NCBI RefSeq assembly: GCF_017498085.1
Contig: NZ_JAGBKM010000019.1
Coordinates: forward strand, 1-64,000
Length of the DNA stretch: 64,000 bases
Direction of reading: 5' to 3'
From: Psychrobacter coccoides
GTDB lineage: Bacteria > Pseudomonadota > Gammaproteobacteria > Pseudomonadales > Moraxellaceae
Shown here: piece after piece, positions 46,767 through 64,000 of the stretch
How positions within the stretch are numbered: position 1 is the stretch's first letter
Layout: the number at the start of each line of letters is the position of its first letter
The notes under the pieces: model-generated
Told to the model about the DNA's origin: nothing
What the model saw: the letters and a program-made list of their open reading frames with translations, nothing else
Databases searched by the model: none
Position numbers and translations under genes: made by a program

Positions 46767-47555
46767 TTAAACATAGTAGGTTTGGATTTGTGCTGCACAA
46801 TCCCGTAATATAGGCAAAAGTTGCTCCATTAGAGCCTCATGAGAAATACGTGAAGCGTTGGTGCTGATGTTAATGGCACCAATAAGCTCGTTATTTGCCT
46901 TATAGACGGGTAGGGCAAGCGACAATAACCCCGTATCTAGCTCTTGATCTACGACCGCATATTGGTTCTCTGCCGCTTGTTGTAGTACTTGCAATAAATG
47001 GTTGCGGTCGGTAATGCTGTGGGGTGTGTGTGATTTCAGTTCAACGTTATCGACATAGTCTTTGAGCTGTTCATCAGGTAGGTTGGCAAGAATAGCGCGC
47101 CCCATCGAAGTATACGCCGCAGGGAGGCGGGTGCCAACTGAAATGCTGATCGACAATAAGCGATGCTTAGCGGCGGAGCGGGCGATATAAACCACATCGT
47201 CGCCATCTAATACTGCAAAAGAACAAGACTCTCCTGTCTGTTCAGTCACACGCTCTAGATAAAACTGAATAATCTCATGATGATGTACGCCGCCCAAATA
47301 GCTTGCACCAATGCTCAACGTCTTTGGGGTCAAGCTGAATTGGCGCTTGTCTTTGTGTACGTAACCAAGCGCATGCAAGGTTAATAGATAGCGTCGGGCT
47401 TTTGCTCTGTCTATATTGGCACGTTCAGCGACTTCGCTTAGTGTCATGCTAGAGTGATTTTCATCAAAAGTTAGCAATACGTCTAGACCTGCTGCAAGAG
47501 AGGCCACAAAGTCTGGGCTATCGAAGGGTATTTTCTTATCTTGTTCTTTATGCAT
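46767..47555 (-). CDS. IclR-family regulator, PcaR/PcaU/PobR-like
   Basis: A 262-aa IclR-type regulator. The winged HTH is at about 15-75 (ENHSSMTLSEVAERANIDRAKARRYLLTL, in pieces) and the effector domain has the block RLPAAYTSMGRAILANLPDE near 150. PcaU, PobR and PcaR, which control protocatechuate and 4-hydroxybenzoate genes, share this layout and size. It is divergent from pcaB with only 48 bp between. GTTCG-containing blocks like PcaR-type sites occur before dctP1 and pcaF. It is the likely master regulator of this island. Repressor or activator mode is not readable. Confidence 0.85.
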   Translation of the reverse strand: MHKEQDKKIPFDSPDFVASLAAGLDVLLTFDENHSSMTLSEVAERANIDRAKARRYLLTLHALGYVHKDKRQFSLTPKTLSIGASYLGGVHHHEIIQFYLERVTEQTGESCSFAVLDGDDVVYIARSAAKHRLLSISISVGTRLPAAYTSMGRAILANLPDEQLKDYVDNVELKSHTPHSITDRNHLLQVLQQAAENQYAVVDQELDTGLLSLALPVYKANNELIGAINISTNASRISHEALMEQLLPILRDCAAQIQTYYV

Positions 47556-47603
47556 GATGTTTAATAATTACCAATAAATGATGACTAAAATTAGGGAGTT
47601 TAA

Positions 47604-48974
47604 ATGCGAATTACTCAGTTAATCAATCAGCCTTTTGTACATCCGGATATTGCCCGTGATTTCTCTGACCGTTCGTTTGTGCAAGCGATGTTAGATTTTG
47701 AATTGGCTATTATCGAAGCCAGAGAACATAATAGCCTGATTCCCAAAGGTATTCTACAGCAAACTAAGCAAGCATTAGCGATAGATTTATTTGATATTGA
47801 GGCGATCGGGTCACAAACTTATCTGGGTGGCAATGCGGCTATTCCTTTTGTCGCCCAAGCCAAATCCTTGTTACCTACAGAAATAAAGCCCTATTTTCAT
47901 AAAACAGTCACCAGTCAAGACGTGGTTGATACGGCGATGATGATGATGCTTAAGCCTGCACTAAAGCGTATCAACCAAGACTTAATTGACGTGCTGCAAG
48001 CATGTGCAGCTCTGATAGATGCTCATAGCACGACACCGATGGCGGGTAGGACCTTATTGCAACACGCTTTACCGATTACTTTTGGTGTAAAAGTCTCACA
48101 GTGGGCGGCATCTTTAATCGCTGTAATGCCAAATTTAGCACAATTAGAGCAATCAGGCTTTTATTTGCAATGGGGTGGGCCGGTAGGGGTCAGTGATCAA
48201 GACAACGAGCAGTATGAGCTACCCCAGCAAGTTGCCACACTACTTGGTTTGTCACTGCCATTACTGCCTTGGCATACCAACAGGCAACCGATTCATACGA
48301 TCGCTTCTGCATTAGATGCCTGTGCAGGTGCGATGGAAAATATCGTTGATGATATTGCATTACTGTGCCAGTCTGAATTGGGTGAGGTGGCTGAGCCTGC
48401 GATTAAAGGGATGGGCGGGTCCTCTTCAATGCCTCATAAGCGCAACCCTGTATTGTGTGGCTTAATTAAAACAGCCACCTTAAGAATGCATGGTCATCTG
48501 AGTGTGATAAGCAATACTACCGCCCAACCTTTTGAGCGTGCATTGGGTCAATGGCATGCCAGTTGGGTACCTTTAGCCGAGGGAGTGGCTTTGGTCGCAG
48601 GTGCAGCGGCTTATCTGAAGACTTTGCTACAAGGTCTGCAAGTTTATCCAGAACGCATGGCCGCCAACCTTGATTTAAATAGCGATGCTTATCTTATTGA
48701 GACTTTGCAGCGTTACTTCTTAGACAACCAAGAGCAAGTTTATCCTTTAATAGAGCAAGCCAGCCAAAAGGCGCATAGCGAGCACAACGGGTTTGTGCAG
48801 ACTCTCTTAGCTTTATTAGAAGCACAGTCTGTAGATAGCGATGCCAATAATAATAGTGCTGAGCTTAAAGTTATTCTATCGCCTTTAACCTATAGTGGTG
48901 CTGCAGGTAGCCAGTGCCAAACAATCTTACGAGCCATTGAGAAATTAATTTTGACTTTAAAAGGAGATAAATAG
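47604..48974 (+). CDS. pcaB: 3-carboxy-cis,cis-muconate cycloisomerase
   Basis: PcaB cyclises 3-carboxy-cis,cis-muconate, the protocatechuate ring-cleavage product, to 4-carboxymuconolactone. The 456-aa protein belongs to the fumarase/aspartase superfamily. The family signature GSSSMPHKRNP lies near residue 275, and HKTVTSQDVVDTAMM near 97 supplies another active-site block. MAGRTLLQHALPITFG matches PcaB proteins. It is separated from the main pca operon by more than 6 kb of transporter and accessory genes. It is divergent from the IclR regulator. GGGAG precedes the ATG. Confidence 0.92.
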   Translation: MRITQLINQPFVHPDIARDFSDRSFVQAMLDFELAIIEAREHNSLIPKGILQQTKQALAIDLFDIEAIGSQTYLGGNAAIPFVAQAKSLLPTEIKPYFHKTVTSQDVVDTAMMMMLKPALKRINQDLIDVLQACAALIDAHSTTPMAGRTLLQHALPITFGVKVSQWAASLIAVMPNLAQLEQSGFYLQWGGPVGVSDQDNEQYELPQQVATLLGLSLPLLPWHTNRQPIHTIASALDACAGAMENIVDDIALLCQSELGEVAEPAIKGMGGSSSMPHKRNPVLCGLIKTATLRMHGHLSVISNTTAQPFERALGQWHASWVPLAEGVALVAGAAAYLKTLLQGLQVYPERMAANLDLNSDAYLIETLQRYFLDNQEQVYPLIEQASQKAHSEHNGFVQTLLALLEAQSVDSDANNNSAELKVILSPLTYSGAAGSQCQTILRAIEKLILTLKGDK

Positions 48975-48997
48975 AGAGTAATAAATCAAATAACGAG

Positions 48998-49068
48998 ATT
49001 GACAGGAAGATAGAAAAGGGTTACCTTAATTCACTATACGAACAACTATTCTAATGAAGAACAAACAC
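48998..49068 (+). promoter_or_regulatory. Promoter/operator block 1, upstream of dctP1
   Basis: A -35 TTGACA (48999-49004) lies 17 bp before a -10-like TACCTT. It is followed by TTAATTCACTATACGAACAA and a second GAACAAA half-site. The whole ~71 bp is nearly identical, without gaps, to 55430-55500 before pcaF; the 20-base core is exact. Read in reverse, GTTCGTATAGTGAA resembles PcaR/PcaU-type operators. Binding by the nearby IclR protein is inference. Confidence 0.7.
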
Positions 49069-49196
49069 AGCTACCTTTTAATGGTATGGCTGTGCATTTT
49101 CTCAAAGTTGTTTTAAGATCGCCATCAAGCAAGCTGCGTCTGACTTGACACCAGAGCTTTATATTAGAACTATTTTTAATCATCAAAAAGGACTTC

Positions 49197-50255
49197 ATGA
49201 TGAAGAAGACTCTCGCACTTAGTATGGCCTTGGCCACTATGATTGGTATCGCTGGTTGCTCGCAATCAAATGATGCAGTCAGTGATGGTGCTACAGATAC
49301 TCAAGAGACCACTACCTTACGTTTTGCCCATTTTTGGCCAGCAACTTCAGCGACCCATACCGAGGTTTTTGCCCCTTGGGCGCAAAAGATTGAAGAAGAG
49401 TCAGACGGACGGTTAAAAGTTGAAATATTCCCTTCTGCAACCCTCAGTAAAGCCGACGCTGCCTATGACGCAACTTCTAAAGGTATGGTGGATATAGGCT
49501 CGCAGCTGCAAGGCTATACAGCGGGACGTTTTCCATTGACTCAAATCACAGAACTCCCAGGTCTATCTAACTCAGCGACACAAATGAACTGTATGCTACA
49601 GACCTTATATGATGATGGGGTGATATCAAGTGAGTATGAAGATACACACCTACTGTTTATGATGGGAACTGGCCCTGGCGGTATTCATACGGTTGACCAA
49701 CCTATCAACAAACCAGATGATTTGAAAGGCTTGCGCATTCGCCGTCCATCGGCCATCGCTGGTGACATCATTGAAGCGGCAGGCGGCACACCTGTCGGCT
49801 TGCCTGTCACTGATGTATATACGTCACTACAACGTGGTGTGCTTGATGGTTTGAGTCTGCCATGGGATGCCATGGGCTCATTTAAACTGATTGAGCTATC
49901 GAACACTCATACCAACATTCCGTTTTATAGCTCGGCTATCGTGGTCACTATGAACAAGGATAAATATGCAGGGCTGCCAAAGGATCTGCAGCAGGTCATT
50001 GACAATAATTCTGGCAAGATGATGGCGGCGCTTGCTGGTAAAGTGTTCGATGCCGAAGATGATAAGTTTATGGCTGAAGCCCAAGCTAATGGTGATGTGA
50101 TAATAGACATTCCTGATCCATTGAATGATCCTGCTTGGAGAGGCCCATTAGAAGCAGGGACGCAAAAATACTTAAAAGATGTTGAAGCACTTGGATTAGA
50201 TGCGCAAATGGTCTATGAAAAAGCCAAAGAAGCAAGTGCGGCTTGTAAGTCTTAA
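49197..50255 (+). CDS. TRAP transporter solute-binding lipoprotein, DctP family (paralogue 1)
   Basis: A substrate receptor of 352 aa for a tripartite ATP-independent periplasmic transporter. The signal peptide ends in the lipobox IAGC with Cys21, so it is anchored as a lipoprotein rather than free. The DctP fold shows HFWPATSATHTEVFAPWAQK, PSATLSKADAAYD, and the carboxylate-binding Arg in DLKGLRIRRPSAI near residue 180. The C-terminus ends ASAACKS. It is first in a tandem of three similar receptors and lies downstream of operator block 1. An aromatic acid is the likely ligand from context. Confidence 0.9.
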   Translation: MMKKTLALSMALATMIGIAGCSQSNDAVSDGATDTQETTTLRFAHFWPATSATHTEVFAPWAQKIEEESDGRLKVEIFPSATLSKADAAYDATSKGMVDIGSQLQGYTAGRFPLTQITELPGLSNSATQMNCMLQTLYDDGVISSEYEDTHLLFMMGTGPGGIHTVDQPINKPDDLKGLRIRRPSAIAGDIIEAAGGTPVGLPVTDVYTSLQRGVLDGLSLPWDAMGSFKLIELSNTHTNIPFYSSAIVVTMNKDKYAGLPKDLQQVIDNNSGKMMAALAGKVFDAEDDKFMAEAQANGDVIIDIPDPLNDPAWRGPLEAGTQKYLKDVEALGLDAQMVYEKAKEASAACKS

Positions 50256-50306
50256 AGTATGTATAATAAAAATTAGATACAGCTTATTTACAGGGAAGAA
50301 ATAACA

Positions 50307-51356
50307 ATGTCTAATAAATTTAAAACCAGTGCTATGTTTTTATTCGTAGCATTTGCGACGGGTCTTTCAAGTTGTTCAGGTCAGCCTGAAGGGGCGGTTA
50401 AGGAGGACGCTATAATCTTAAGGTTCTCTCATTTTTGGCCTGCTACAGCTGCACTACATAAGGATGTGTTTGAGCCTTGGGCCAGACAGATCGAAGACGA
50501 TTCAGCTGGTAGGCTCAAGGTTGAGATTTATCCTTCAGCGACCTTGAGTAAGCCCGACATCACTTATGACTCAACGGCCAAGGGTACGGTTGATATAGGT
50601 GCTCAGGTTCAAGGCTATATCAGTGGTCGTTTTCCATTGACTGAAATTACTCAGCTTCCGGGTCTGTCAAGCTCAGGCACTCAATTAAGCTGTATGCTAC
50701 AAACCTTGTATAACGATGATGTAATAGCAAGTGAGTATGATGACACGCATCCACTATTTATGATGGCGTCAGGACCTGGCGCTTTCCATACTATTGATAA
50801 GCCTATCCGCAAGCCGGAAGACTTAAAAGGCATGCGTATTCGCCGCCCGTTAGAGATAGCGGCTAATATTATCGAAGCGGCTGGTGGTACCCCTGTTGGG
50901 ATGCCAGCTTCTGATCAATATACGTCTTTGCAGCGCGGCGTCATTGATGGCGTGAGTACGCCTTGGGATGCGGCAGGCGCTTTTAGGTTAGCTGAATTAA
51001 CAAATACGCATACGACCATGCCTTTATATGGCTCGGCTTTGCTTGTGACGATGAATAAAGATAAATACGAAAGCCTGCCTGATGATCTCAAACAAGTCAT
51101 AGATAACCATTCAGGGATGGAGATGGCAAAGACTGCTGGTAATTTATTTGATAGAGAAGATACCAGAGTGATTGCTGAGGCCAAAGCTCGCGGTGATACG
51201 ATGATAGAGATTCCTGATCCATTAAGTGATCCTGCTTGGAGCGGTATACTCAAGACAGAAATCCAAAGCTATTTAGACAATCTTGAAGCTCAAGGGCTAG
51301 ACGCACAAGGTGTCTATGAAAAAGCGCAAGCAGCTAGTGCGGCTTGTAAAGTTTAA
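50307..51356 (+). CDS. TRAP transporter solute-binding lipoprotein, DctP family (paralogue 2)
   Basis: A second receptor of 349 aa, 51 bp after the first. It has its own lipobox LSSC (Cys23). It keeps HFWPATAALHKDVFEPWARQ, the Arg in DLKGMRIRRPLEI, and the ending ASAACKV. In the ligand-lining segments it differs from paralogues 1 and 3: GPGAFHTIDKPIRKP, ASDQYTSLQRGVIDGVSTPWDAAG where the others have GGI/GGL, VTD and LSLPWDAMG. A different ligand preference is therefore likely. No membrane subunit is adjacent. It probably shares the promoter at 48998. Confidence 0.88.
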   Translation: MSNKFKTSAMFLFVAFATGLSSCSGQPEGAVKEDAIILRFSHFWPATAALHKDVFEPWARQIEDDSAGRLKVEIYPSATLSKPDITYDSTAKGTVDIGAQVQGYISGRFPLTEITQLPGLSSSGTQLSCMLQTLYNDDVIASEYDDTHPLFMMASGPGAFHTIDKPIRKPEDLKGMRIRRPLEIAANIIEAAGGTPVGMPASDQYTSLQRGVIDGVSTPWDAAGAFRLAELTNTHTTMPLYGSALLVTMNKDKYESLPDDLKQVIDNHSGMEMAKTAGNLFDREDTRVIAEAKARGDTMIEIPDPLSDPAWSGILKTEIQSYLDNLEAQGLDAQGVYEKAQAASAACKV

Positions 51357-51405
51357 AGTGTAGTAGAGTCCCTAGTCAGAACAGTATTGCTTATTAGGAA
51401 GAGTG

Positions 51406-52098
51406 ATGAAGGGCATTATGGATCAGACTATGAAAGATATTTTTGCCTTAGCAGTGACGCCTGTAGATTATAGCGATGTTGAGTGGAAGGTTCGAGTAGA
51501 GTTAGCACTGTGCTATAGAATGGTTGATTATTAAGGATGGACGACTCAAGTTTATAATCATATTTCATATAGAGCTCCAAGTACAAAGCATCTATTGATT
51601 AATGCGTTTGGACTTTTGTATAGTGCAATTACCCCTTCAAATTTTGTAAAAATAGATTTTGATAGCAATACAGTTGATGACTCATCTTATGCTATTAATA
51701 AAGCTAGTAGTGTTATTCATACGGCCTTGCGTAAGGGTAGAACTGATGTTCACTGCGTCATGCATACCCACAATCCTGATGTTCAAGCAGTAAGTGCGCT
51801 CAAGTGTGGCTTTATGCCCTTATATCAAGAAACTTTTATGTTCTACGATCGTATTGGTTACCATGACTTTGAAAGCATCGTACTGGATGAAAGCGAGCAG
51901 CAAAGACTGGTAGGCTCGCTAGGCCCGACCAATTACACCTTGATGCTTAACAATCATGGAGTTGTTACCACCGGGCCTGATGTGGCTTGGGCATTTATGC
52001 GAATGTACCAAATTATACAAGGCTGTCAGGTTTAGTTAAAAGTCATGGCTTCAGGTGCTGAGGTTAGACTATCTGAGTGGCCGGCGTATTGCTTTTAG
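51406..52098 (+). pseudogene. Class II aldolase/adducin family gene with in-frame stops
   Basis: One reading frame from the ATG at 51406 carries a class II aldolase/adducin domain. A TAA at 51532 interrupts it just before the family's conserved GW. A TAG at 52033 follows, after IIQGCQV and before LKVMASGAEVRL. The metal-site motif HCVMHTHNPD and the late His in LNNHGVVTTGPD are intact. The sequence between is continuous and in phase, so decay looks recent. The family includes sugar-phosphate aldolases and decarboxylases of dihydroxyphthalate (PhtC type). The latter would yield protocatechuate, fitting the locus, but this is speculative. Confidence 0.78.
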
Positions 52099-52360
52099 TG
52101 ACGAAAAAGCTTCAGGTGTAGGTCTCTTCGGTCGCTATATTACCTTTGATGAGTTCAGCACTTACTAGTGGGTGTCGGTACAGACGTAACAACGTCCGTA
52201 TCCAGTTTAAGGAATGTTCTGACGATCTAAGAGAGTTTTAACCATATAAAGTATAAATTTATGGCTCCCATTTACTAGGATGCAATACAAGTTGTGTAAA
52301 TTAAAAGCTACGTCTAACTTTATATTTATAATATTTTACAATCACTAAAAGGAATTTGTG
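52099..52360. other. Decayed stretch before dctP3
   Basis: A further short frame (RRIAFSDEKASGVGLFGRYI, then TFDEFSTY) crosses the end of the aldolase pseudogene at about 52081-52169. It may be the tail of another lost gene that I cannot identify. The rest is AT-rich, with the AAGGA site of dctP3 at the end. Confidence 0.35.
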
Positions 52361-53407
52361 ATGAATAAAACCTTTCCATTAAGTCTAGCATTGGCTACTT
52401 TGATAGGTATGACTGGCTGCTCACAATCAGATAGCACTGCTAATCAAGACTCTCAAGAAGTGACGACATTACGTTTTTCACATTTCTGGCCTGCTAGCTC
52501 AACGACAAATACAGAGATCTTTGAACACTGGGCACAAAAAGTAGAAGAAGACTCTGAAGGCAAAATTAACGTTGAGATATACTCTTCTGCAACACTCAGT
52601 AAGCCAAATGCAACCTATGATGCCGTTGCCAATGGTGTTGTTGATATAGGAGCTACGTTACAAGGATACACCAATGGCCGCTTCCCATTGACACAAATTG
52701 CAGAATTACCAGGACTCTCAAATTCAGCAACACAATTAAATTGTATGCTACACAGTCTGTATGACAATGGGGTAATTTCAAGTGAGTATGAGGATACACA
52801 TGTTTTATTCATGATGGGTACTGGTCCTGGAGGCTTACACACTGTCGATAAACCGATTCGTAAACCAGATGACTTAAAAGGAATGCGTATTCGAGGCCCT
52901 TCAGCTATCACAGGAAATATTATTGAAGCTGCTGGTGGCACACCTGTGGGATTACCCGTGACAGATCTTTATACCTCCCTCCAACGCGGTGTGTTGGACG
53001 GTACAAGCTTACCTTGGGATGCGATGGGCTCGTTTAAGCTAACAGAAATAACAAACACCCATACAAACATACCTTTCTATAGTTCACCAATCATAGTGAC
53101 TATGAACAAGGACAAATATGAAAGTCTGCCAGATGATTTGAAAAAAGTAATTGATGATAATTCAGGTAAAGCTATGGCTGAGATTGCTGGTAAGGTATTC
53201 GATGAAGATGATGCAAGATATATGGCAGCAGCAAAAGCAAAAGGCGATACAATAATAGATATCCCAAACCCATTAAATAATCCAGATTGGAAAAAGCCTT
53301 TAGAAGAAGGTACACAAAGATACCTGCAAGATATCGCAAAGCTGGGATTGGACTCTCAAACCGCTTATCAGAAAACTAAAGAAGCGAGCGCAGCATGTCA
53401 ATCTTAG
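52361..53407 (+). CDS. TRAP transporter solute-binding lipoprotein, DctP family (paralogue 3)
   Basis: A third receptor of 348 aa with lipobox MTGC (Cys20). Residue for residue it is much closer to paralogue 1 than to paralogue 2: MGTGPGG(L/I)HTVD, GTPVGLPVTD(L/V)YTSLQRG and LPWDAMGSFKL are shared. The DNA is visibly more AT-rich than paralogue 1, with A/T-ending codons, so it is either an older duplicate that has drifted or a copy from a relative. The start is the ATG at 52361 with AAGGA upstream. It is separated from the others by the aldolase pseudogene. Confidence 0.88.
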   Translation: MNKTFPLSLALATLIGMTGCSQSDSTANQDSQEVTTLRFSHFWPASSTTNTEIFEHWAQKVEEDSEGKINVEIYSSATLSKPNATYDAVANGVVDIGATLQGYTNGRFPLTQIAELPGLSNSATQLNCMLHSLYDNGVISSEYEDTHVLFMMGTGPGGLHTVDKPIRKPDDLKGMRIRGPSAITGNIIEAAGGTPVGLPVTDLYTSLQRGVLDGTSLPWDAMGSFKLTEITNTHTNIPFYSSPIIVTMNKDKYESLPDDLKKVIDDNSGKAMAEIAGKVFDEDDARYMAAAKAKGDTIIDIPNPLNNPDWKKPLEEGTQRYLQDIAKLGLDSQTAYQKTKEASAACQS

Positions 53408-53470
53408 TAGCTATTTAACTTTTTGCTTAAGTGGTTCGCTTAGTTGGATAGTAGCGTTAATAAAGAGTTC

Positions 53471-53497
53471 ACTCTCCGTATTTTCGATATGGAGAGT
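53471..53497. terminator. Hairpin after dctP3
   Basis: ACTCTCC and GGAGAGT form a perfect 7-bp stem, extended by a GTA/TAT pairing. The loop is TTTTCGA. AATTT follows, so termination is uncertain. Confidence 0.45.
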
Positions 53498-53637
53498 AAT
53501 TTAGGTCATGCTAGTTAAGTAAATGTACTATTCATCATACTGAAATAATTGAAACGTTTTAGACTCTAACCCTTAACATAAACAGTTCTGTCTACATTAA
53601 ACTCGGCAATAAATAATTACTGACAAGGATGTTGTCT

Positions 53638-55245
53638 ATGTCTCTTATTAATCATAAAAATACCGTACAACAAATAACGTTTCGTCTGATGCGTGAACTA
53701 AATATGACTAAGGTATTTGGTAATCCTGGCTCTACTGAGCTTAACTTTTTAAATAATTTTCCTGAAGATTTTGAATATGTGTTGGCTCTACAAGAATCAT
53801 CTGCTGTGGCTATGGCAGATGGTTATGCTCAAGCGTCTGGCAATGCTGCTTTTGTTAATCTGCATTCAGCAGTAGGTGTTGGTCATGCTTTAGGAAACAT
53901 CTTCACTGCATATCGAAATCATACCCCATTAGTCATAACAGCAGGTCAGCAATCACGTAGTATATTACCATTTGCGCCTTACCTTGGAGCAGATCACGCA
54001 GCGGATTTTCCAAAGCCTTATGTTAAATGGAGTATTGAGCCCGCACGCCCCGAAGATGTCCCATTGGCAATAGCTCAAGCCTATCATATTTCTATGCAGC
54101 ATCCACGTGGGCCAACCTTTGTGTCTATACCCTCTGATGATTGGGATAAAACGACACAGATGCCTAATTACTCAAAGGTAATAGAGGGTACTACGCCAAC
54201 TGAAGATGCTATCAACCAATTATTACAAGCGTTAGAAAACAGTCAAAATTTAGCCGTAGTCGTAGGATCGGATGTGGATAGGCAAGGCGCATTTAATACA
54301 GCGGTCAAACTGGCTGAGCGGCTGCAAGCACATGTTTGGGAAGCCCCGTATTCAAGTCGAGCTAGCTTTCCGGAAAACCATCCTCAGTTTGCAGGGTTTC
54401 TTCCAGCTCTTCCTGAGCAACTGTCAAAAAAACTTGCTGATTATGATGTGATTCTTGTAGTTGGTGCACCTGTGTTTACACTGCATATTGCAGGTGAAGT
54501 GGATATATTTGACTCTGAAGTTGAAATTTATCAAATTACTGATGATCCAAAGTATGCGGCATTTTCTTCTGCCACTACCACTTTATTTGGTTCAATAAAT
54601 CACAGTCTTAACGCTGTGCTTGATAAGCTCGCTTCTTTATCTAACTCTCAGAGTGATAGTTTTGCTATACCGATTCGTCCTGCTACTCTAAAAATAACTG
54701 GAAGCACACCTATTCCAGTAGAATATGCCATTGACCTACTAGCTCATGCGAGACCATCTGATTCAGTAATAGTAGAAGAGGCGCCTTCTCACCGCTCTGT
54801 CATCCAGCGTTTTCTACCCATTACAAGGCCTAATAGTTTTTTTACTATGTCAAGTGGAGGTCTTGGGTATGCTCTACCTGCATCAGTCGGAGTAGCTCTA
54901 GCCACTGATAAACGCGTAATATGTGTCATTGGTGATGGCTCGTCTATGTATTCATTTCAAGCAGTTTGGACAGCCGCTCAGTTAAATTTACCTGTGACCT
55001 TTATCGTTCTAAATAACCTTGGATATGGCGCAATGCACTCATTTGGTAAGATTATGAATAGTCAATCTGTACCAGGTCTCGACTTACCTAATATTGATTT
55101 TGTACAGTTAGCTAATAGTATGGGATGTGATGCTGCTCGTATAAAGGAACATGAAAAACTACCGGAAGCGATTAACAAAGCGATTAATACGTCTGGTTGT
55201 TATCTATTAGAAATAATTGTTGATACTAAAGCAGGTGCTATTTGA
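53638..55245 (+). CDS. mdlC: Benzoylformate decarboxylase-like thiamine-diphosphate enzyme
   Basis: At 535 aa it is similar throughout to benzoylformate decarboxylase of the mandelate pathway. FGNPGSTELNFL near 20-31 includes the active-site Ser, LALQESSAVAMADGYAQASG contains the cofactor Glu, and NLHSAVGVGHALG contains the first catalytic His. GDGSSMYSFQAVWTAAQLN with a later NN is the ThDP site. The start is the ATG at 53638, eight bases after AAGGA; an upstream ATG is too close. The DNA is AT-rich like dctP3. Benzoylformate or a ring-hydroxylated relative would give a benzaldehyde, which needs a dehydrogenase not seen here. Confidence 0.85.
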   Translation: MSLINHKNTVQQITFRLMRELNMTKVFGNPGSTELNFLNNFPEDFEYVLALQESSAVAMADGYAQASGNAAFVNLHSAVGVGHALGNIFTAYRNHTPLVITAGQQSRSILPFAPYLGADHAADFPKPYVKWSIEPARPEDVPLAIAQAYHISMQHPRGPTFVSIPSDDWDKTTQMPNYSKVIEGTTPTEDAINQLLQALENSQNLAVVVGSDVDRQGAFNTAVKLAERLQAHVWEAPYSSRASFPENHPQFAGFLPALPEQLSKKLADYDVILVVGAPVFTLHIAGEVDIFDSEVEIYQITDDPKYAAFSSATTTLFGSINHSLNAVLDKLASLSNSQSDSFAIPIRPATLKITGSTPIPVEYAIDLLAHARPSDSVIVEEAPSHRSVIQRFLPITRPNSFFTMSSGGLGYALPASVGVALATDKRVICVIGDGSSMYSFQAVWTAAQLNLPVTFIVLNNLGYGAMHSFGKIMNSQSVPGLDLPNIDFVQLANSMGCDAARIKEHEKLPEAINKAINTSGCYLLEIIVDTKAGAI

Positions 55246-55283
55246 TAAGATTTTAGTTATTTTTAAAATTTAAATAAGAACTA

Positions 55284-55429: not shown

Positions 55430-55500
55430 ATTGACAGAAGGTTAGAAAAGGGGTAACTTAATTCACTATACGAACAATAATTCTGATATAGAACAAATCT
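55430..55500 (+). promoter_or_regulatory. Promoter/operator block 2, upstream of pcaF
   Basis: TTGACA (55431-55436), 17-bp spacing, then TAACTT as a -10-like box. The 20-base core TTAATTCACTATACGAACAA is identical to the one before dctP1, and a further AGAACAAA half-site follows. About 140 bases separate it from the pcaF start, so a long leader or additional elements are present. Control by the IclR protein at 46767 is inferred. Confidence 0.7.
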
Positions 55501-55638: not shown

Positions 55639-56850
55639 ATGACAACAGTTTATATTTGTCATCCAAAACGTTCAGCGGTAGCCCGCTATGGTGGTGCTTT
55701 AGCTGATATTCGTCCAGATGACCTGCTAGCGCAAGTCATTAAGTCTGTATTAGCAGAGGCCCCTAAGTTTGACCATAGTGCGATTGAAGATGTGTTTATG
55801 GGCTGTGCCAACCAAAGTGGTGAAGACAATCGCAACGTTGCTCGTATGAGCAGCCTGTTATCTGGTTTAACAGAGCAAGTACCAGCTACAACCATAAACC
55901 GTTTGTGTGGTTCTGGGTTAGATGCAGTTGGCACGGCTTTTCGTGCAATCGCCAGTGGTGAGATGGAGTTGGCTTTGGCGGGCGGTGTTGAGTCGATGAC
56001 ACGTGCGCCTTTTGTCATGGGCAAGCCAGAAAAATCCTATGATCGTAGTCAGAAGTTGCAAGACACCACCATGGGCTGGCGCTTTATTAACAAAAAGCTT
56101 GATGAGATGTATGGCACAGAAGCGATGCCACGTACCGCAGAGAATCTAGCCGAAAAATACAATATATCACGTGAAGATCAAGATGCTTTTGCCGTTTGGT
56201 CGCAACAAAAAGCTGCTCAAGCTCAAAATGACGGTCGTCTAAATGCAGAGATCACTCCTATTACTATCGAGAGGCGTAAGCAAGAGCCACTCGTCGTAGA
56301 TAAAGATGAGCACCCACGTCCGAATACTGATATGGCGGCCCTAACAAAGCTAAGGCCTATCTATGAGAATGGCACGATCACCGCAGGTAATGCTTCAGGT
56401 ATTAATGATGGTGCTGCGGCGATGTTAGTCGCTAGCGCCGCTGCAGTAAAAAAGTATGGTTTAACGCCTGTGGCAAAAATCGAAGGGATGGCAACGGCTG
56501 GGGTTTTGCCAACGATCATGGGTATCGGACCTGTACCTGCCACCCAGAAGTTATTGAAGCGGCTCAATCTTAGCTTGGATGATGTTGATATTATCGAGCT
56601 TAATGAAGCTTTTGCTGCCCAAGCATTGGCTTGCTCACGTGAGTTGGGACTTGATGATCATGACGAGCGCATTAACCCTAGAGGTGGTGCTATTGCTTTG
56701 GGTCATCCGCTTGGAGCGTCAGGTGCTCGTATCTTAATTTCTGCCATCTATGAATTACAACATAGTAAAAAGGATCGAGCGCTCTGTACCATGTGTATCG
56801 GGGTTGGGCAGGGAATTGCTTTGGTCGTTTCAAGAGTAGGAGAAGAGTAA
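55639..56850 (+). CDS. pcaF: 3-oxoadipyl-CoA thiolase
   Basis: PcaF cleaves 3-oxoadipyl-CoA into succinyl-CoA and acetyl-CoA, the last step of the beta-ketoadipate pathway. The 403 aa cover the whole thiolase fold. The nucleophile Cys is in NRLCGSGLDAV near 91, the His in GGAIALGHPLGASGAR near 355, and the second Cys in CTMCIGVGQGIALV near 388. It is the first gene of the pcaF-DC-H-G-pobA-I-J run. Its TAA shares one base with the pcaDC ATG (TAATG). Confidence 0.95.
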   Translation: MTTVYICHPKRSAVARYGGALADIRPDDLLAQVIKSVLAEAPKFDHSAIEDVFMGCANQSGEDNRNVARMSSLLSGLTEQVPATTINRLCGSGLDAVGTAFRAIASGEMELALAGGVESMTRAPFVMGKPEKSYDRSQKLQDTTMGWRFINKKLDEMYGTEAMPRTAENLAEKYNISREDQDAFAVWSQQKAAQAQNDGRLNAEITPITIERRKQEPLVVDKDEHPRPNTDMAALTKLRPIYENGTITAGNASGINDGAAAMLVASAAAVKKYGLTPVAKIEGMATAGVLPTIMGIGPVPATQKLLKRLNLSLDDVDIIELNEAFAAQALACSRELGLDDHDERINPRGGAIALGHPLGASGARILISAIYELQHSKKDRALCTMCIGVGQGIALVVSRVGEE

Positions 56851-58022
56851 TGGCATTTTTGACAACAGACGCCCATCTTATTGGGTATCAAGACAGTGGT
56901 GAAACTTATTTACCCGCTTTATTTATGGCGCATCCGTTAGGCATGAGCCGTGATGTATGGGATGAAGTCTGTGATGCGCTACATGGGCATTATCGTTGTG
57001 TGCGCTGGGATCTACCGGGACACGGTAGTAGCGGCGCTGCGGCAGAGGGACTGAACGCTGAGATATTGGCTCAGGACGTCCTTACTTTGGCTGACACTTT
57101 AGACATTGATAGCTTTCATTTTATCGGTACCTCAATCGGCGGTGTCATTGGTCAAAGCTTGTGCCAGATAGCGCCTGAGCGCCTACAGCAAGTTTGGCTG
57201 ACCAGTACCGGTGCGGTAATCGGCACCAAAGAAGCATGGGCTGAGCGTGCGGACAATGTGCGTCGCTTGGGCTTGGCTGAAATGGCGGAAGCCATTGTAC
57301 CGCGCTGGTTCTCACCAAGTTATGTCGAGCAGAATCCTGATGTATTACAAGGCTGGCAAGTACAATTGTCACGCAGCGATGATGAAAGCTATGCCAAGCT
57401 TTGTGAAGCATTAGCAGAGGTCGATAATCGCGGAAAGCTAGCGGATTATGCTAATGGTGTGGCATTGATAGCGGGTGCAGATGATGTCTCAACGCCTGTC
57501 ACTGCTTTAGAGTCACTGAAAGCTGAATTTACTGATGCCAGCTTAAGCGTCTTTGCAGGGGTAGGTCATGTGCCATCGGTTGAGGCGCCAAGCCTATTGG
57601 TTAAGCACCTTCAAGCCAATGCAGCTCGGACGGCTGTGGGTGAAACGGGTATCAGATATGAGCAAGGGTTGGTGCAGCGTAAGCGAATTTTAGGAGAGGC
57701 ACATGTTGAAAGAGCCTCTAAAAATGCGACCACATTAGACAATCCTTTTCAGCAGTTTATCACCCGTAATGCTTGGGGCGAGTTGTGGGGAGATCCAAGT
57801 CTCACGGTACAACAGCGTAGTATGATTACCACAGGCATATTAGCGGCGCTTGGGCGTGATGGAGAGCTGAGTTTGCATCTGCGTACCGCAAAGCGTCTAG
57901 GCATCAATGAAGATCAGCTGCGTCAAGTCTTAATGCATGTGGCTATTTATGCTGGTGTACCAGCAGCAAATCATGCTTTTTCTATGGCTAAAGATAATGG
58001 CTGGGGCCATGAAATTTCTTAA
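56850..58022 (+). CDS. pcaL: Fused 3-oxoadipate enol-lactonase / 4-carboxymuconolactone decarboxylase
   Basis: This bifunctional protein of 390 aa carries out two consecutive steps. Residues 1-255 are an alpha/beta hydrolase of PcaD type (MAHPLGMSRDVWDEV, nucleophile Ser in FIGTSIGGVIGQ near 93, late His in FAGVGHVPSVEAP). Residues 265-390 are a carboxymuconolactone decarboxylase of PcaC type (RYEQGLVQRKRILGEAHV, RSMITTGILAALGR, with His in LMHVAIYAGVPAANHAF). PcaD-PcaC fusions (PcaL) are known mainly from actinobacteria. Acinetobacter keeps the genes apart. The start is the ATG at 56850; a longer frame from 56793 lies inside pcaF. Confidence 0.92.
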   Translation: MAFLTTDAHLIGYQDSGETYLPALFMAHPLGMSRDVWDEVCDALHGHYRCVRWDLPGHGSSGAAAEGLNAEILAQDVLTLADTLDIDSFHFIGTSIGGVIGQSLCQIAPERLQQVWLTSTGAVIGTKEAWAERADNVRRLGLAEMAEAIVPRWFSPSYVEQNPDVLQGWQVQLSRSDDESYAKLCEALAEVDNRGKLADYANGVALIAGADDVSTPVTALESLKAEFTDASLSVFAGVGHVPSVEAPSLLVKHLQANAARTAVGETGIRYEQGLVQRKRILGEAHVERASKNATTLDNPFQQFITRNAWGELWGDPSLTVQQRSMITTGILAALGRDGELSLHLRTAKRLGINEDQLRQVLMHVAIYAGVPAANHAFSMAKDNGWGHEIS

Positions 58023-58085
58023 TATTCAAGCTATTAAGTGCACTATTTATATAAGTTATGCTTGAAAAGAATGGAGAAAATTATA

Positions 58086-58814
58086 ATGAGTCAAAAGTAT
58101 CCTTATTTTATTGCTCGTGATCGAGCATGGCAACCGGCACAATATACCCCGCGTTACAAAACCTCAGTGTCTCGTTCACCGCGCCAAGCTCTGGTCAGTA
58201 TTCAAAATGCCAGCCCTTCTGAGCGCAGCGGTCCTGTTTTTGATGGTTTAGAGCTTGGTCAATACGACAATGATTTGTTGATGAACTTTCGTACCGAAGG
58301 GTCTGCAGCAGGCATGCCTGTTGGGGAACGCATTATTATGCATGGGCGTGTGATTGATCAGTTCGGTAAGCCTGTGCCCAATACCTTAGTTGAGATGTGG
58401 CAGGCAAACGCTGGTGGTAAATACCGCCACAAAAAAGATGGCTATTTGGCTGCGTTAGACCCGAGCTTTGGTGGTGTTGGTCGTTGCATTACCGATGCAG
58501 ATGGTCGTTATCGCTTTCGCACAGTCCGCCCAGGTCCTTACCCTTGGCCTAATGACATCAATACTTGGCGCCCAGCACATATTCACGTATCGGTCATGGG
58601 GCCTTCGATCTCAACACGTTTGATCACCCAAATGTACTTTGAAGGCGATCCGCTTATTCCGCTGTGCCCTATCGTACAAGTATTAAAAGATCCAGACGCC
58701 GTTGAAACCATGATTGCACGCTTAGATATGGCCATGAGTAAACCCATGGACTGCTTAGCATATCGTTTTGATATTGTCGTTCGCGGCGCATTACAAACCT
58801 ATTTTGAGGAGTAA
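58086..58814 (+). CDS. pcaH: Protocatechuate 3,4-dioxygenase beta subunit
   Basis: This iron(III)-carrying subunit splits protocatechuate between its two hydroxyls, giving 3-carboxy-cis,cis-muconate. The protein has 242 aa from the ATG at 58086, after GGAGA. The iron ligands lie in [17 protein letters not shown] (Tyr) and [12 protein letters not shown] (two His), with a further Tyr earlier in the GGKYRHK region. The beta-subunit N-terminal segment ([19 protein letters not shown]) is present. It is three bases from pcaG, whose ribosome site GAGGAG lies in the pcaH 3' end. Confidence 0.95.
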
Positions 58815-58817
58815 AAC

Positions 58818-59441
58818 ATGTATAGCCAATACAAATTACAAGATGAAACGGGTTTATTGCGCGAAACAGCATCGCAAACGGCAGGGCCTTTTGTACATAT
58901 CGGCTTGGCGTTAGAGATTGCTGGTTTTGAATCACGAGCAGATGAGATCTGGCAGGATTTGGCCAAAGAAGGCGCCGAAGGTGAGCATATTGAGTTGGTT
59001 GGTCGGGTGTATGACGGCAATGGCGACTTGGTGCGTGATGCCTTAATTGAAATCTGGCAAGCTGATAGTCAAGGCAACTATATTGCCAACTTTGATAATA
59101 AACAACCGTTTAGTGGCTTTGGGCGTAGCGCCTGTGCAGTAGACGGTGATTTTCATTTTAATACCATCAAACCTGGGCAAGTAGATTTTGATGGTAAGCC
59201 AATGGCGCCGCATATCAATATCGCTGTGTTTGCCCGTGGTATCAATATCCATCTACAAACCAGAGCCTATTTCGATGACGAACAAGCGGCTAATGATGAC
59301 TGCCCAATCTTGAATGGTATTCCATCGGATGTACGCCGTCAGACCTTAATAGCAGTCAAAGAAGCAGGCGAGGGTAAGCCACGTTATCGTTTTGATATCT
59401 ATCTACAAGGCGAGGGCGAGACGGTATTCTTCGACTTTTAA
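58818..59441 (+). CDS. pcaG: Protocatechuate 3,4-dioxygenase alpha subunit
   Basis: This is the structural partner of PcaH; alpha and beta form the oligomeric enzyme. The 207-aa protein begins with the typical ETASQTAGPFVHIGLALEIAG. It keeps the intradiol fold (LIEIWQADSQGNY; FNTIKPGQVDF; APHINIAVFARGINIH). The Tyr/His iron ligands of the beta subunit are only partly retained, as expected for alpha subunits. It directly follows pcaH and precedes pobA by 57 bp. Confidence 0.94.
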   Translation: MYSQYKLQDETGLLRETASQTAGPFVHIGLALEIAGFESRADEIWQDLAKEGAEGEHIELVGRVYDGNGDLVRDALIEIWQADSQGNYIANFDNKQPFSGFGRSACAVDGDFHFNTIKPGQVDFDGKPMAPHINIAVFARGINIHLQTRAYFDDEQAANDDCPILNGIPSDVRRQTLIAVKEAGEGKPRYRFDIYLQGEGETVFFDF

Positions 59442-59465
59442 CATCATATATTTCATAGATACTAA

Positions 59466-60686
<1,221 letters not shown>

Positions 60687-60731
60687 GGCATTCAGACTCA
60701 GATTTTTGCTTCTTTTTTATAGGACAAGTCA

Positions 60732-61403
60732 ATGTTAAACAAAATAACAAAATCTGCGACCGAAGCCATCAGCAATATTCATGATGGTGCCACCATCTTG
60801 ATAGGTGGCTTTGGTTTGGCAGGACAGCCAGCAGAGCTGATAGATGCTCTGATTGAGCGTAATGCAAAAGACCTAACGATAGTTAATAATAATGCAGGTA
60901 ACGGTGATACTGGGCTTGCGGCACTGCTAAAAGCAGGTTGCGTGCGTAAGATCATCTGCTCTTTTCCACGTCAGCACGACTCATATATCTTTGATGATCT
61001 CTACCGAGCAGGCAAGATTGAGCTGGAAGTAGTGCCACAAGGTACTTTGGCTGCCCGTATTCAAGCAGGTGGTAGTGGCCTTGGTGCGATTTATACCCCG
61101 ACAGCTTATGGAACCTTACTTGCTGAAGGCAAAGAGACGCGCACCATTGATGGTGTCAACTATGTATTGGAATATCCTATCAAAGGCGATTTTGCGCTTA
61201 TTAAAGCACTAAAAGGCGATCGCTGGGGTAACCTGATTTATAACAAAGCTGCCCGCAACTTTGGGCCTATTATGGCCGCAGCTTCCAGTCATACCATTGC
61301 GCAAGTCAGCGAAGTGGTGGAGCTCGGTGCTTTAGATCCTGAGCATATCGTCACCCCAGGTATTTTCGTTCATGAAGTCGTTCACATTGGAGCAAAAGCA
61401 TGA
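60732..61403 (+). CDS. pcaI: 3-oxoadipate CoA-transferase subunit A
   Basis: It transfers CoA from succinyl-CoA to 3-oxoadipate together with PcaJ. The 223-aa protein has the subunit A glycine-rich loop IGGFGLAGQPAELIDAL near 22-38, VNNNAGNGDTGLA, and GGSGLGAIYTPTAYGT. It overlaps pcaJ by four bases (ATGA), so the subunits are translated together. PcaIJ and the related CatIJ or ScoAB cannot be fully separated by eye. The operon makes PcaIJ the right name. Confidence 0.93.
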   Translation: MLNKITKSATEAISNIHDGATILIGGFGLAGQPAELIDALIERNAKDLTIVNNNAGNGDTGLAALLKAGCVRKIICSFPRQHDSYIFDDLYRAGKIELEVVPQGTLAARIQAGGSGLGAIYTPTAYGTLLAEGKETRTIDGVNYVLEYPIKGDFALIKALKGDRWGNLIYNKAARNFGPIMAAASSHTIAQVSEVVELGALDPEHIVTPGIFVHEVVHIGAKA

Positions 61404-62053
61404 TAACTAACTATACACCATGGTCCGTAGATGAGATCGCCCGCCGCGTTGCAGAGGATATTGAAGAGGGTATGTACGTCAATTTAGGTATTGGCCAACC
61501 CACGAAAGTTGCTGATTTTTTGCCAGATGATAAAGATATCTTTTTGCACAGTGAGAATGGGGTCTTGGGCATGGGCCCTGAACCTGCTGAGGGTAAAGAG
61601 GACGGCGATTTAATCAATGCTGGTAAACAATATATCACCTTGCTAGAAGGTGGTAGTTATTTCCATCATGGTGATTCTTTTGCGATGATTCGCGGTGGGC
61701 ATATTGACTTATGTGTACTAGGTGCCTTTGAAGTCGCTGAAAATGGCGATATTGCCAACTGGTTTTTGGGTCGACCACAAGATATTCCCGCAGTAGGCGG
61801 GGCGATGGACTTAGCGGTTGGTGCCAAAGAAGTCTATGTGATGATGGATCATGTCAGCAAAAATGGTGAGCCTAAAATTGTTGAAAATCTTAAGCTGCCT
61901 ATCACGGGTGAAAAATGCGTCAATCGCATCTACACTGATCTGGCAGTGATTAATGTCACTGATAAAGGCTTGGCCGTACGCGAAATTATCGATGGCTTAA
62001 CTTTTGAGGAGCTGCAAGCTAAAACAGGCGCTAAATTAATCAACAACACGTAA
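61400..62053 (+). CDS. pcaJ: 3-oxoadipate CoA-transferase subunit B
   Basis: The catalytic B subunit of 217 aa. The active-site Glu lies in FLHSENGVLGMGPEP near 52, the standard SENG motif. GIGQPTKVADFLPDD and DLCVLGAFEVAENGDIANW are family blocks. It is coupled to pcaI by an ATGA overlap. It is the last catabolic gene before the TRAP membrane subunits, which begin about 220 bp downstream. Confidence 0.93.
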   Translation: MITNYTPWSVDEIARRVAEDIEEGMYVNLGIGQPTKVADFLPDDKDIFLHSENGVLGMGPEPAEGKEDGDLINAGKQYITLLEGGSYFHHGDSFAMIRGGHIDLCVLGAFEVAENGDIANWFLGRPQDIPAVGGAMDLAVGAKEVYVMMDHVSKNGEPKIVENLKLPITGEKCVNRIYTDLAVINVTDKGLAVREIIDGLTFEELQAKTGAKLINNT

Positions 62054-62087
62054 TAAAGTTCAATATCCATCAAGAAGGGATTCTACG

Positions 62088-62207
62088 ATGAAAACATATT
62101 CAAAACGTGAAGTAGCGAAAGCGACTTCACGCAACACAACTAGACTTACGATGTCTAACCTTGCTGATAGTAAAGTATCTAGCCTTAATAGTACAGGGGA
62201 GGTCTAA
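62088..62207 (+). CDS. Possible small protein (39 aa) between pcaJ and dctQ
   Basis: A short frame (MKTYSKREVAKATSRNTTRL, then ending NSTGEV) with a GAAGGG site about eight bases before its ATG. It matches nothing recognised, is basic and hydrophilic, and has no signal peptide. It may be the leftover 5' end of a gene whose body was deleted, since a dctP 3' scrap follows at once. Confidence 0.3.
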   Translation: MKTYSKREVAKATSRNTTRLTMSNLADSKVSSLNSTGEV

Positions 62208-62223
62208 GCACCTCTATTCTCAT

Positions 62224-62253
62224 ATGGCCGCCAGCGCCACCTGTAAAGTCTAA
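62224..62253 (+). pseudogene. C-terminal scrap of a lost dctP gene
   Basis: Nine codons and a stop read MAASATCKV, closely matching the ends of the three DctP receptors in this island (ASAACKS, ASAACKV, ASAACQS). It sits 18 bp before the dctQ start, exactly where dctP normally precedes dctQM. Its codons (GCC GCC AGC GCC ACC) share the C-ending style of dctQ, not of the three dctP copies. It is therefore the remnant of the original receptor of this membrane module. Confidence 0.65.
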
Positions 62254-62271
62254 CCTACAAGGCATACTCTC

Positions 62272-62799
62272 ATGATACTTTTAACCAAACTCAGCACCCT
62301 CATCTCCAGGCTGTGTCAGTTTATCGGCGGCATCAGCCTAGTGATCATCGTCCTCGTCACCATCCTTGACGTCGGCGCCCGCTACATCTTCAAACTCACC
62401 GGCGGCGACATGGGCTTCACCGTCAAAGGCAGCGTCGAGATCGTCTCCTACTTCATGCTCTTCGCCCTACTGGCCGCCTTTGCCGCCTATGTCGAGCGCT
62501 CACAAATCATCGTCGACGTCTTCACCCAAAAGATGCCCAAAGCCATCAAAGGCTACATGATGGGCATCTTCATGATGGGCTTCTTCTTTATCGGCCTCGT
62601 CTTCACCTGGGGGTTATACGAAAGCGCCCTAGACGCCATCGAATTTGGCAAAGTCACCCAAGACCTCAGACTCTCCATGATGCCCATCTACCTGATCAGC
62701 GCAGCACTCAGCCTACTACTGGCCATCCGCTCACTCATCGAATCCATCAACATCTTTAGAACAGGCGAATTCTTTGACGCCGAGGAGGCAGGCGCATGA
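62272..62799 (+). CDS. dctQ: TRAP transporter small membrane subunit DctQ
   Basis: A four-helix membrane protein of 175 aa that bridges receptor and DctM in a TRAP transporter. Hydrophobic segments are seen at about 15-37, 57-75, 95-120 and 138-155. VTILDVGARYIFKLTGG and the SVEIVSYFMLF block fit DctQ. The gene overlaps dctM by four bases (ATGA). Codon use is strikingly C-rich at third positions (ATC, GTC, GCC, CTC), unlike pcaJ just upstream, which suggests transfer from a GC-richer relative. It probably works with one or more of the three DctP lipoproteins. Confidence 0.88.
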   Translation: MILLTKLSTLISRLCQFIGGISLVIIVLVTILDVGARYIFKLTGGDMGFTVKGSVEIVSYFMLFALLAAFAAYVERSQIIVDVFTQKMPKAIKGYMMGIFMMGFFFIGLVFTWGLYESALDAIEFGKVTQDLRLSMMPIYLISAALSLLLAIRSLIESINIFRTGEFFDAEEAGA

Positions 62800-64000
62800 G
62801 CCCAGAAATAATCGGAGCCATCGGCTTACTCATCATGATCATACTGGTCGTCGTCAGAGTCCCCGTCGCCCTCGCCATGCTCGGCGTCGGCCTCGTCGGC
62901 TTTGGCGCCGTCACCAGCTCAGACGGGGCCCTACAAATGCTCAAAGACCTCCCAGTCGACGTCTTAGCCAAGTATGACTTCAGCGCCATCCCACTATTCA
63001 TTTTAATGGGCGTCTTTGCCACCCACTCAGGCATGGCCGCCAAACTCTTTGACGCCACCCGCACCATCTTTGGCGGCGTCAGAGGCAGTCTTGGCATCGC
63101 CGGCATCGGATCCTCAGGCATCTTCGCCTCCATCTCAGGCTCCTCCCTTGCCACCGCCTCCACCATGACCCGTGTCGCCTTACCGCAAATGGAGAAATAC
63201 GGCTACAAACCCGGCTTTGCCTGCGGCATCCTCGCCGCTGGTGGTACCCTTGGCATCATGATCCCGCCCAGCATCGCCTTACTGGTCTACGCCATCCTCA
63301 CCGAACAATCAGTCGGTGACATGTTTATCGCCGGCTTTCTGCCTGGCATCCTTGGCATGGTCATGTACTCCTTGACCGTCATGATCATGGTACGCTGGAA
63401 ACCGCACCTCGCCCCGCGCGGCGAGAAGACCCCCTGGAAAGACAAACTGCTGTCCCTAACCGGACTCATCCCCTTTGGCTTTATCTTTGTTCTGATCATT
63501 GCCGGTATCTTCTTTGGCCTGTTTACCCCAACCGAAGGGGCCGCTGTCGGTGCCTTTGCCTCTTGGGCGTATGCTGCTGCCAAAGGCATGCGTATGAGAG
63601 GACTGAAACAGTCACTGATTGAGACCCTAGCTCTGTCTGCTGTGGTGTTCTTTATGCTACTGGGTGCTGAAGCTTTAGGCTACTTTATCTCAGTCTCCAG
63701 ACTGTCTTATTCGTTAGCCACTTGGATTGGTGGTTTGGCCGTCAGTCCGATGATCGTTCTGCTGGCCATCTTGCTGATGTACTTCCTGCTTGGTCTGTTT
63801 ATGGATGCGCTCGCCATGTTGGTGATTACCATTCCAGTGGTGTTCCCCATCATTCTAGCCTTGGGCTTTGATCCGATCTGGTTTGGTATCATTGCGGTAC
63901 TTACGGTAGAGCTGGGTCTGATCACGCCGCCGATGGGGATGAATATCTTTGTGATTAAGGCGGTGGCACCGCATATTAAGCTGTCGGAGATGTTTAGGGG
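62796..64000 (+). CDS. dctM: TRAP transporter large membrane subunit DctM (cut by window end)
   Basis: The transport channel of the TRAP system. 401 codons are present and the frame is open at 64000; DctM proteins are usually about 425-430 aa, so little is missing. Many hydrophobic segments are seen. GIFASISGSSLATASTM, YGYKPGFACGILAAGGTLGIMIPPS and FGLFTPTEGAAVGAFA are conserved DctM blocks. It is coupled to dctQ by ATGA. Codon style changes inside the gene. Up to roughly 63500 it is C-ending and GC-rich like dctQ. After that it returns to the mixed AT-leaning style of neighbours, pointing to a recombination joint. Confidence 0.9.
   Translation, partial: MSPEIIGAIGLLIMIILVVVRVPVALAMLGVGLVGFGAVTSSDGALQMLKDLPVDVLAKYDFSAIPLFILMGVFATHSGMAAKLFDATRTIFGGVRGSLGIAGIGSSGIFASISGSSLATASTMTRVALPQMEKYGYKPGFACGILAAGGTLGIMIPPSIALLVYAILTEQSVGDMFIAGFLPGILGMVMYSLTVMIMVRWKPHLAPRGEKTPWKDKLLSLTGLIPFGFIFVLIIAGIFFGLFTPTEGAAVGAFASWAYAAAKGMRMRGLKQSLIETLALSAVVFFMLLGAEALGYFISVSRLSYSLATWIGGLAVSPMIVLLAILLMYFLLGLFMDALAMLVITIPVVFPIILALGFDPIWFGIIAVLTVELGLITPPMGMNIFVIKAVAPHIKLSEMFR

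Follow-up and report, generated by a model that had tools for sequence, protein, structure and literature searches.

Which membrane module serves transport receptors whose genes lie apart from any membrane subunit? The question is raised by a 64,000-nucleotide stretch of Psychrobacter coccoides DNA (positions 1 to 64,000 of contig NZ_JAGBKM010000019.1; hereafter the window). Here three genes for DctP-type receptors of tripartite ATP-independent periplasmic (TRAP) transporters, dctP1, dctP2 and dctP3, form an island, and the sole dctQM pair of the window, at 62272, lies 8.9-13.1 kb downstream of them. The source genome is a 3.05-Mb draft in 85 contigs, one of which, C11 (64,003 nt), is almost entirely covered by the window. 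Our analysis suggests that the island probably belongs to a TRAP system in which several receptors for aromatic acids share one DctQM, and that this system is widespread in the genus Psychrobacter.

Receptors in excess of membrane genes

The three related receptors recognised in a first-pass annotation, with lipoboxes IAGC, LSSC and MTGC in DctP1, DctP2 and DctP3, respectively, are borne out by the open reading frames (ORFs), family matches and pairwise identities. PF03480 scores of 139-160 bits (cut-off 23.4) place all three in the DctP family, and all three exceed the threshold of NCBIfam TRAP_S1 (NF037995); the TIGR00787 score lies under its own cut-off. With that exception, every sequence mark tested identifies the receptor system as TRAP. 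DctP1 and DctP3 are the closer pair (73% identity), while DctP2 is the odd one out, at 64% identity to DctP1 and 59% to DctP3.

The likeness of DctP1 to DctP3, and the gap of only 51 bp between dctP1 and dctP2, would also fit redundant copies that bind the same ligand and serve dosage. However, synonymous divergence (dS) among the three is 1.9 or saturated, orthologues show ratios of nonsynonymous to synonymous divergence (dN/dS) of 0.05-0.10 where dS could be estimated, and the receptors belong to old, separate clades with different enzyme neighbours. We consider redundancy unlikely. For dctP1, dN/dS was 0.053 and 0.076 in the two of three orthologue pairs with unsaturated dS, and one dctP2 pair gave 0.10, indicating purifying selection. 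Orthologues of dctP3 are 85-90% identical in three relatives (L081, L082 and L089). In a tree built without the seven distant rows of A2, the receptors of Psychrobacter fall into a single clade (100/100) whose groups extend across species, and DctP2 lies in a 100/100 clade with two other Psychrobacter proteins. The receptor paralogues of the source genome are 51-80% identical, with dS of at least 1.7.

Receptor and membrane genes were counted in the source genome and in 25 of the 26 relatives with at most 8 contigs, G059 (2 contigs, 85% complete) being left out; loci L072 and L064 come from the same genome, as do L079 and L125, and each such genome was counted once. The two families co-occur: 18 of the 26 genomes, the source included, hold both receptors and dctM, and eight hold neither. 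The 17 relatives with the system carry 51 receptors against 23 dctM genes, with receptors in excess in 15 and equal numbers in G036 and G081. The dctP2 gene of G022, whose match begins late in the model (44-356), may have decayed. Among 81 sampled Moraxellaceae genomes, the receptor family was present in 10 of 13 from Psychrobacter; in the other genera, matches were far weaker (237-251 bits) and confined to 4 of 68 genomes, all of one genus.

G041 combines five receptors with a single dctM of the family, located after the locus-B receptor (L068), and its pca cluster contains dctP1 and dctP2 without dctQM. The other full-length, unfused DctM of this genome shares 29% identity and adjoins a more distant receptor of its own. 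This further TRAP set lies at locus L135 (G041 C1 1242000-1256000), and its lipoprotein-like receptor is 27% identical to dctP_C4b, a receptor of the source genome.

Another TRAP permease as partner of the orphan receptors was rejected for 10 of 12 genomes checked, those with the system. Further DctM matches in these 10 genomes were a fused protein of 679-714 amino acids in each, which we take to be of TAXI type, a weak match of 27-36 bits in five, and the one with its own receptor in G041. This check covered 10 of the 17 relatives with the system.

Copies of dctQM and a lost receptor

The first-pass annotation had described the dctQM pair as the only one, 9-13 kb from the receptors. This stands for the window, but uniqueness in the genome was rejected, since a genome search gave three copies. 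The dctQM repeat has left flanks on three contigs (C4, C11, which is that of the window, and C38) and right flanks on three others (C28, C7 and C14), which indicates that the genome holds three copies. The repeat is identical across 1,718 nt in C4, C11, C38, C28 and C7, and C14 starts with its last 162 nt, with 2 mismatches. Other pairs matched to these receptors had been expected to speak against sharing; further pairs exist, but they lie beside other receptors and have the same sequence, so that this objection is borne out by half.

Seven receptors of the DctP family are present in the source genome, three in the window and four elsewhere; two lie directly upstream of dctQM on C4 and one on C38. 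Synteny with G022 (5 contigs) joins C11 to C28 and C38 to C7, and C4 to C14 by elimination. C28 carries ech, fcs, a further receptor and genes for an acyl-CoA dehydrogenase and an aldehyde dehydrogenase. Because C11 continues into C28 by this synteny, the whole island probably comprises four receptors and one dctQM. On the right flank of the third dctQM, C14 (L143) carries, by reading only, a transposase-like ORF and a gene resembling sulfatases that is spread over two frames.

Six contigs terminate inside or at the dctQM repeat, as might be expected if the several copies were an assembly artefact of a draft genome. Against this, the single-contig genomes G029 and G002 carry at least two and at least three near-identical copies, respectively (copy numbers from the DNA search of relatives are lower bounds, drawn from the best three candidates per genome), and we regard an artefact as very improbable. 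A further dctQM setting in G002 (L061) has a receptor 69% identical to DctP1 and follows a pcaF paralogue (56%) and other genes.

The spacer between pcaJ and dctQ in the window retains both ends of a receptor gene. Its 5' part consists of a leader and first codons with ATGAAAA (62059-62094), and its 3' part of last codons and spacer (62227-62270), 44 nt ending one base before dctQ. This tail matches the end of dctP_C4b in 43 of 44 nt (score 83, against a maximum of 25 in 1000 composition shuffles), and the leader also has its best match in dctP_C4b (48 against 26, 1000 composition shuffles); the shuffles preserve base composition only, and the best-matching of eight receptors was used for both scores. 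Start-region relics occur at the equivalent position in eight such loci, scoring above all 200 shuffles in seven; that of G022 was equalled by one of 200. The tail is present in the source genome and G022 only, among the eight loci compared. Because the spacer holds the start and the end of a receptor gene, it indicates that the dctQM of the pca locus once had an adjoining receptor, which has since been deleted while the membrane genes were retained.

Copies of dctQM from one genome share 99.6% identity in G029, 98.2% in G022, 98.4-99.3% in G002 and 95.9% in G009; between genomes, identity at the same locus is 73-95%. In the dctQM tree, copies group by genome in the source genome (100/100), G002 (100/100), G029 (100/99), G009 (95/89) and G022 (88/91); those of G077 and G090 do not. 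The dS of dctM between copies is 0.01-0.05 in G022, G029 and G002, against 0.33 from the source genome to G022. Because receptor groups cross species while dctQM copies cluster by genome, these comparisons indicate that the receptors diversified long ago and were kept, and that the membrane genes were re-homogenised in several lineages. The single-contig genomes G029 and G002 carry this argument, since the draft assembly of the source genome could hide small differences.

Gene conversion would be the simplest cause of the likeness for most pairs: in G022, in G029 and in both G002 comparisons that include the A copy, mismatches are concentrated towards the two ends of dctQM, which fits conversion tracts. 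If the near-identity instead arose because dctQM was recently copied more than once to the same two or three sites, it would be uninformative on sharing. The A copy in the source genome and G022 bears a C-type receptor tail, as a copied block would, and the B and D loci of G002 are alike through the receptor (89.7% over 2,845 bp), as after whole-locus duplication, with mismatches that are not concentrated at the ends; nor are they in G009. However, positions A and B are kept in all seven genomes read at both, including two whose copies are divergent, and together with the end-concentrated mismatches this makes repeated duplication the less probable route. Both routes yield the same homogenised module.

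A stronger form of the shared-module reading, to which we give about an even chance, is that one DctQM, held the same at several loci by conversion, would be the port through which five to seven lipid-anchored receptors deliver different aromatic ligands. Genes for receptors would arise, move with catabolic genes and be lost, and the port would stay constant since every receptor must dock.

A shared element, predicted ligands and neighbouring genes

A two-dyad operator-like element, with the core TTC-N7-GAAC occurring twice, precedes both dctP1 and the pcaF...pcaJ-dctQM run (Table 1). The copy before dctP1 is part of a 68-bp stretch that is 85% identical to 55430-55497, and this stretch has only two sites in the genome, before dctP1 and before pcaF (E 0.001). 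The element precedes dctP1 in 18 of 18 relatives and pcaF in 12 of 12 relatives with pcaF in the stretch, at 67-89% identity; L061, with its 56% pcaF paralogue, was excluded from this count. The pattern was written from its two copies, which makes its shuffle control circular; the genome repeat search and the relatives are independent of it. A sigma-70 scan of 47400-56000 gave 14 sites against 21.6 expected and did not list the TTGACA upstream of the two elements, so that we propose no promoter from it. The IclR-type regulator is the probable reader of the element. Because the same element precedes dctP1 and pcaF...dctQM, receptor and permease, 13 kb apart, are probably induced together by this adjacent regulator.

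The AlphaFold (AF2) model, made for DctP1 only, has a predicted local distance difference test (pLDDT) score of 89.8, and of the 14 nearest-fold rows with Z of at least 38, 11 carry titles that name aromatic-acid or TarP receptors. All 52 receptors aligned keep R182, which lines up with an arginine of TarP_Csal; from its place in the motif, it would be the arginine that clamps the ligand carboxylate. The enzyme neighbours differ by receptor group: pcaB; mdlC with vdh; fah and a glyoxalase; and ech-fcs. Orthologues of dctP1 adjoin pcaB in the 18 relatives read, and dctP2 adjoins it in some relatives only. From these neighbours we infer aromatic-acid ligands. The earlier proposal that the receptors take different aromatic ligands is consistent with the catabolic neighbours and the nearest folds, as a prediction.

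The lipobox cysteine is invariant in all seven receptors of the source genome. The lipobox pattern is present in 51 of 52 Psychrobacter receptors, the remaining one having LFGC, and in 0 of 12 from outside the genus; the 52 rows include one truncated duplicate (L064). Serine directly follows the lipid-bearing cysteine (+2) in 49 of 51 receptors, and dctP_C28 of the source genome has aspartate. By the E. coli sorting rule, serine at +2 directs a lipoprotein to the outer membrane. Such sorting would be odd for a receptor that needs an inner-membrane permease.

In the mechanism that we propose, DctQ and DctM would form the common membrane module, and DctP1, DctP2 and DctP3, tethered by lipid anchor and linker, would differ in the aromatic acid that they capture, most likely one of the 4-hydroxybenzoate/protocatechuate type for DctP1 and DctP2 and of the benzoylformate/benzoate type for DctP3. 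Each receptor would dock to the same DctQM and hand over its ligand, which DctQM would import by an ion gradient, as established for the TRAP family.

The aldolase remnant between dctP2 and dctP3 is a probable pseudogene: its frames are longer in relatives, and the DNA upstream of it has stops in all frames. The adjoining vdh end matches contig C28 10762-10890 at 86.8% identity over 129 nt, with two in-frame stops in the vdh frame. The gene order in L081, L082 and L089 is dctM-vdh-dctP3-mdlC; in the window, the aldolase remnant is followed by the decayed 3' end of vdh and then by dctP3-mdlC. Because a decayed vdh end precedes the block here and the intact order is found elsewhere, the dctP3-mdlC block most likely moved into the island. 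A further receptor group lies beside class II aldolase genes in L064, L067, L074, L078 and others, in L064 also beside a gene for a TauD-type dioxygenase; it has no member in the window, whose own aldolase gene has decayed. The names of pcaF, pcaDC, pcaHG, pobA and pcaIJ come from reading of the ORFs, without a family-library scan, and are presumptive. Near the island, at 42595-43458 on the minus strand, lies a leucine-rich-repeat-like protein of 287 amino acids (by reading only).

Table 1. Features of the receptor island and its surroundings in the window
Feature	Position	Strand	Identification
IclR-type regulator, PcaR/PcaU/PobR subfamily	46767..47555	-	TIGR02431 291.8 bits, cut-off 284.75
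pcaB-like cycloisomerase	47604..48974	+	best NCBIfam matches PRK09053 and protocat_pcaB, both under curated cut-offs
Two-dyad operator-like element upstream of dctP1	49030..49063	+	TTGACA just upstream
dctP1, TRAP receptor lipoprotein	49197..50255	+	PF03480/NF037995; pcaB-linked orthologous group
dctP2, TRAP receptor lipoprotein	50307..51356	+	PF03480, NF037995
Class II aldolase remnant, both ends truncated	51595..52035	+	146 aa, model positions 58-202 of 256
Decayed vdh (aldehyde dehydrogenase) 3' end	52084..52212	+	junction of the dctP3-mdlC block that most likely moved
dctP3, TRAP receptor lipoprotein	52358..53407	+	PF03480, NF037995; benzoylformate-decarboxylase-linked group
mdlC, benzoylformate decarboxylase	53629..55245	+	NF005485 724 bits, cut-off 493
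Two-dyad element upstream of pcaF...pcaJ-dctQM run	55462..55495	+	repeat match
pcaF, pcaDC, pcaH, pcaG, pobA, pcaI, pcaJ	55639..62053	+	ORFs; gene order recurs in relatives
Relic of apparently deleted C-type receptor gene	62054..62271	+	218-bp spacer pcaJ-dctQ
dctQ, small membrane subunit	62272..62799	+	PF04290 50.6 bits, cut-off 28.3
dctM, large membrane subunit	62796..64000	+	PF06808 294.7 bits, over cut-off; runs off contig end inside 1,718-nt repeat

A proposed shared module weighed against known systems

Several observations weigh against a shared module. Two receptor loci of the source genome (C4 and C38) have adjacent dctQM, and the receptor excess need not mean sharing there; the identity of its dctQM copies could also be inflated by assembly collapse. 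Homogenisation is not universal, as the copies are only 76% identical in G077 and 79% in G090, with dctM dS of 2.9 and 1.9, respectively. The operator-like element, absent before the receptors on C4, C28 and C38, is absent before dctP3 as well. In the literature, a TRAP receptor is described as normally having a membrane partner of its own (PMC12599236), SiaP of Vibrio cholerae cannot replace SiaP of Haemophilus influenzae (PMC5812351), and Bordetella pertussis highly expresses a TRAP receptor whose membrane parts are seemingly non-functional (PMC5812351), so that a genome may retain a receptor that lacks functional membrane parts.

The usual uniqueness of pairs and the B. pertussis case would suit receptors that have no adjacent dctQM and do not feed it, acting instead as sensors, periplasmic buffers, leftovers or partners of other permeases, with dctQM serving its own locus only; fused DctM proteins of ~700 amino acids and weak DctM-like proteins do exist in these genomes. 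Yet the dctQM of the pca locus in the window is kept open though only a relic adjoins it, the receptor family never occurs without the dctM family in the 26 genomes, the pca cluster of G041 has receptors and no dctQM, and the receptors are under purifying selection. We judge non-feeding receptors improbable. The first-pass proposal of one module serving several lipid-anchored receptors draws support from the receptor excess (51 to 23 in the 17 relatives, five to one in G041), the relic and the common element, from which docking itself would follow by inference.

A genus in which five receptors live with one dctQM would make docking rules testable by natural paralogue swaps, and receptor-only addition would illustrate a way for a bacterium to broaden its diet. 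The dctQM copies would also exemplify concerted evolution among transporter genes, with a visible trace of the receptor gene that was lost.

Among known systems, TarPQM of Rhodopseudomonas palustris, a transporter of lignin-derived aromatic acids, is similar in receptor fold, in its DctQ and DctM subunits and in its aromatic catabolic setting; TarP binds coumarate, ferulate and caffeate with nanomolar dissociation constants (PMC3610893). The DctP1 model matches liganded TarP_Csal and TarP_Sse entries at Z 41.0-42.5 and 31-32% identity. However, R. palustris has one receptor gene with its own QM genes (RPA1782-1784), whereas here three to seven lipoprotein receptors stand with few, often homogenised dctQM copies, and only a relic lies beside the dctQ of the pca locus. 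In Pseudomonas aeruginosa, a non-cognate DctP has been suggested to work with IctQM (PMC12599236), but IctPQM and DctPQM are two complete systems with one probable crossing, whereas the receptor excess here would be a standing design. The DctP6 and DctP7 receptors of B. pertussis are likewise kept, in one system beside membrane parts that appear to have lost function; their ligand is pyroglutamate, and the accessible parts of the source describe no shared intact membrane module (PMC5812351).

Other families resemble the island in single traits. The orphan Bug receptors of Bordetella, of the tripartite tricarboxylate transporters (TTT), also combine many receptors with few membrane modules, but they belong to an unrelated family (TctABC) with a far larger expansion, to 76 receptor genes (PMC5812351). 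ATP-binding cassette (ABC) transporters with several binding proteins share one membrane unit among receptors (PMC12599236), but are ATP-driven and have unrelated membrane parts. The Treponema TatT-TatP(T)-TatQM system, a tetratricopeptide repeat (TPR) protein-associated TRAP transporter (TPAT), has a lipid-anchored TRAP receptor (PMC5812351), but a single one, with a TPR partner. In the accessible parts of the open full-text literature we found neither a TRAP system described as having several receptors as a standing arrangement nor any account of concerted evolution in dctQM, which is not proof of absence. Within an otherwise TRAP system, the new part is the architecture, the excess of receptors over a probably shared module.

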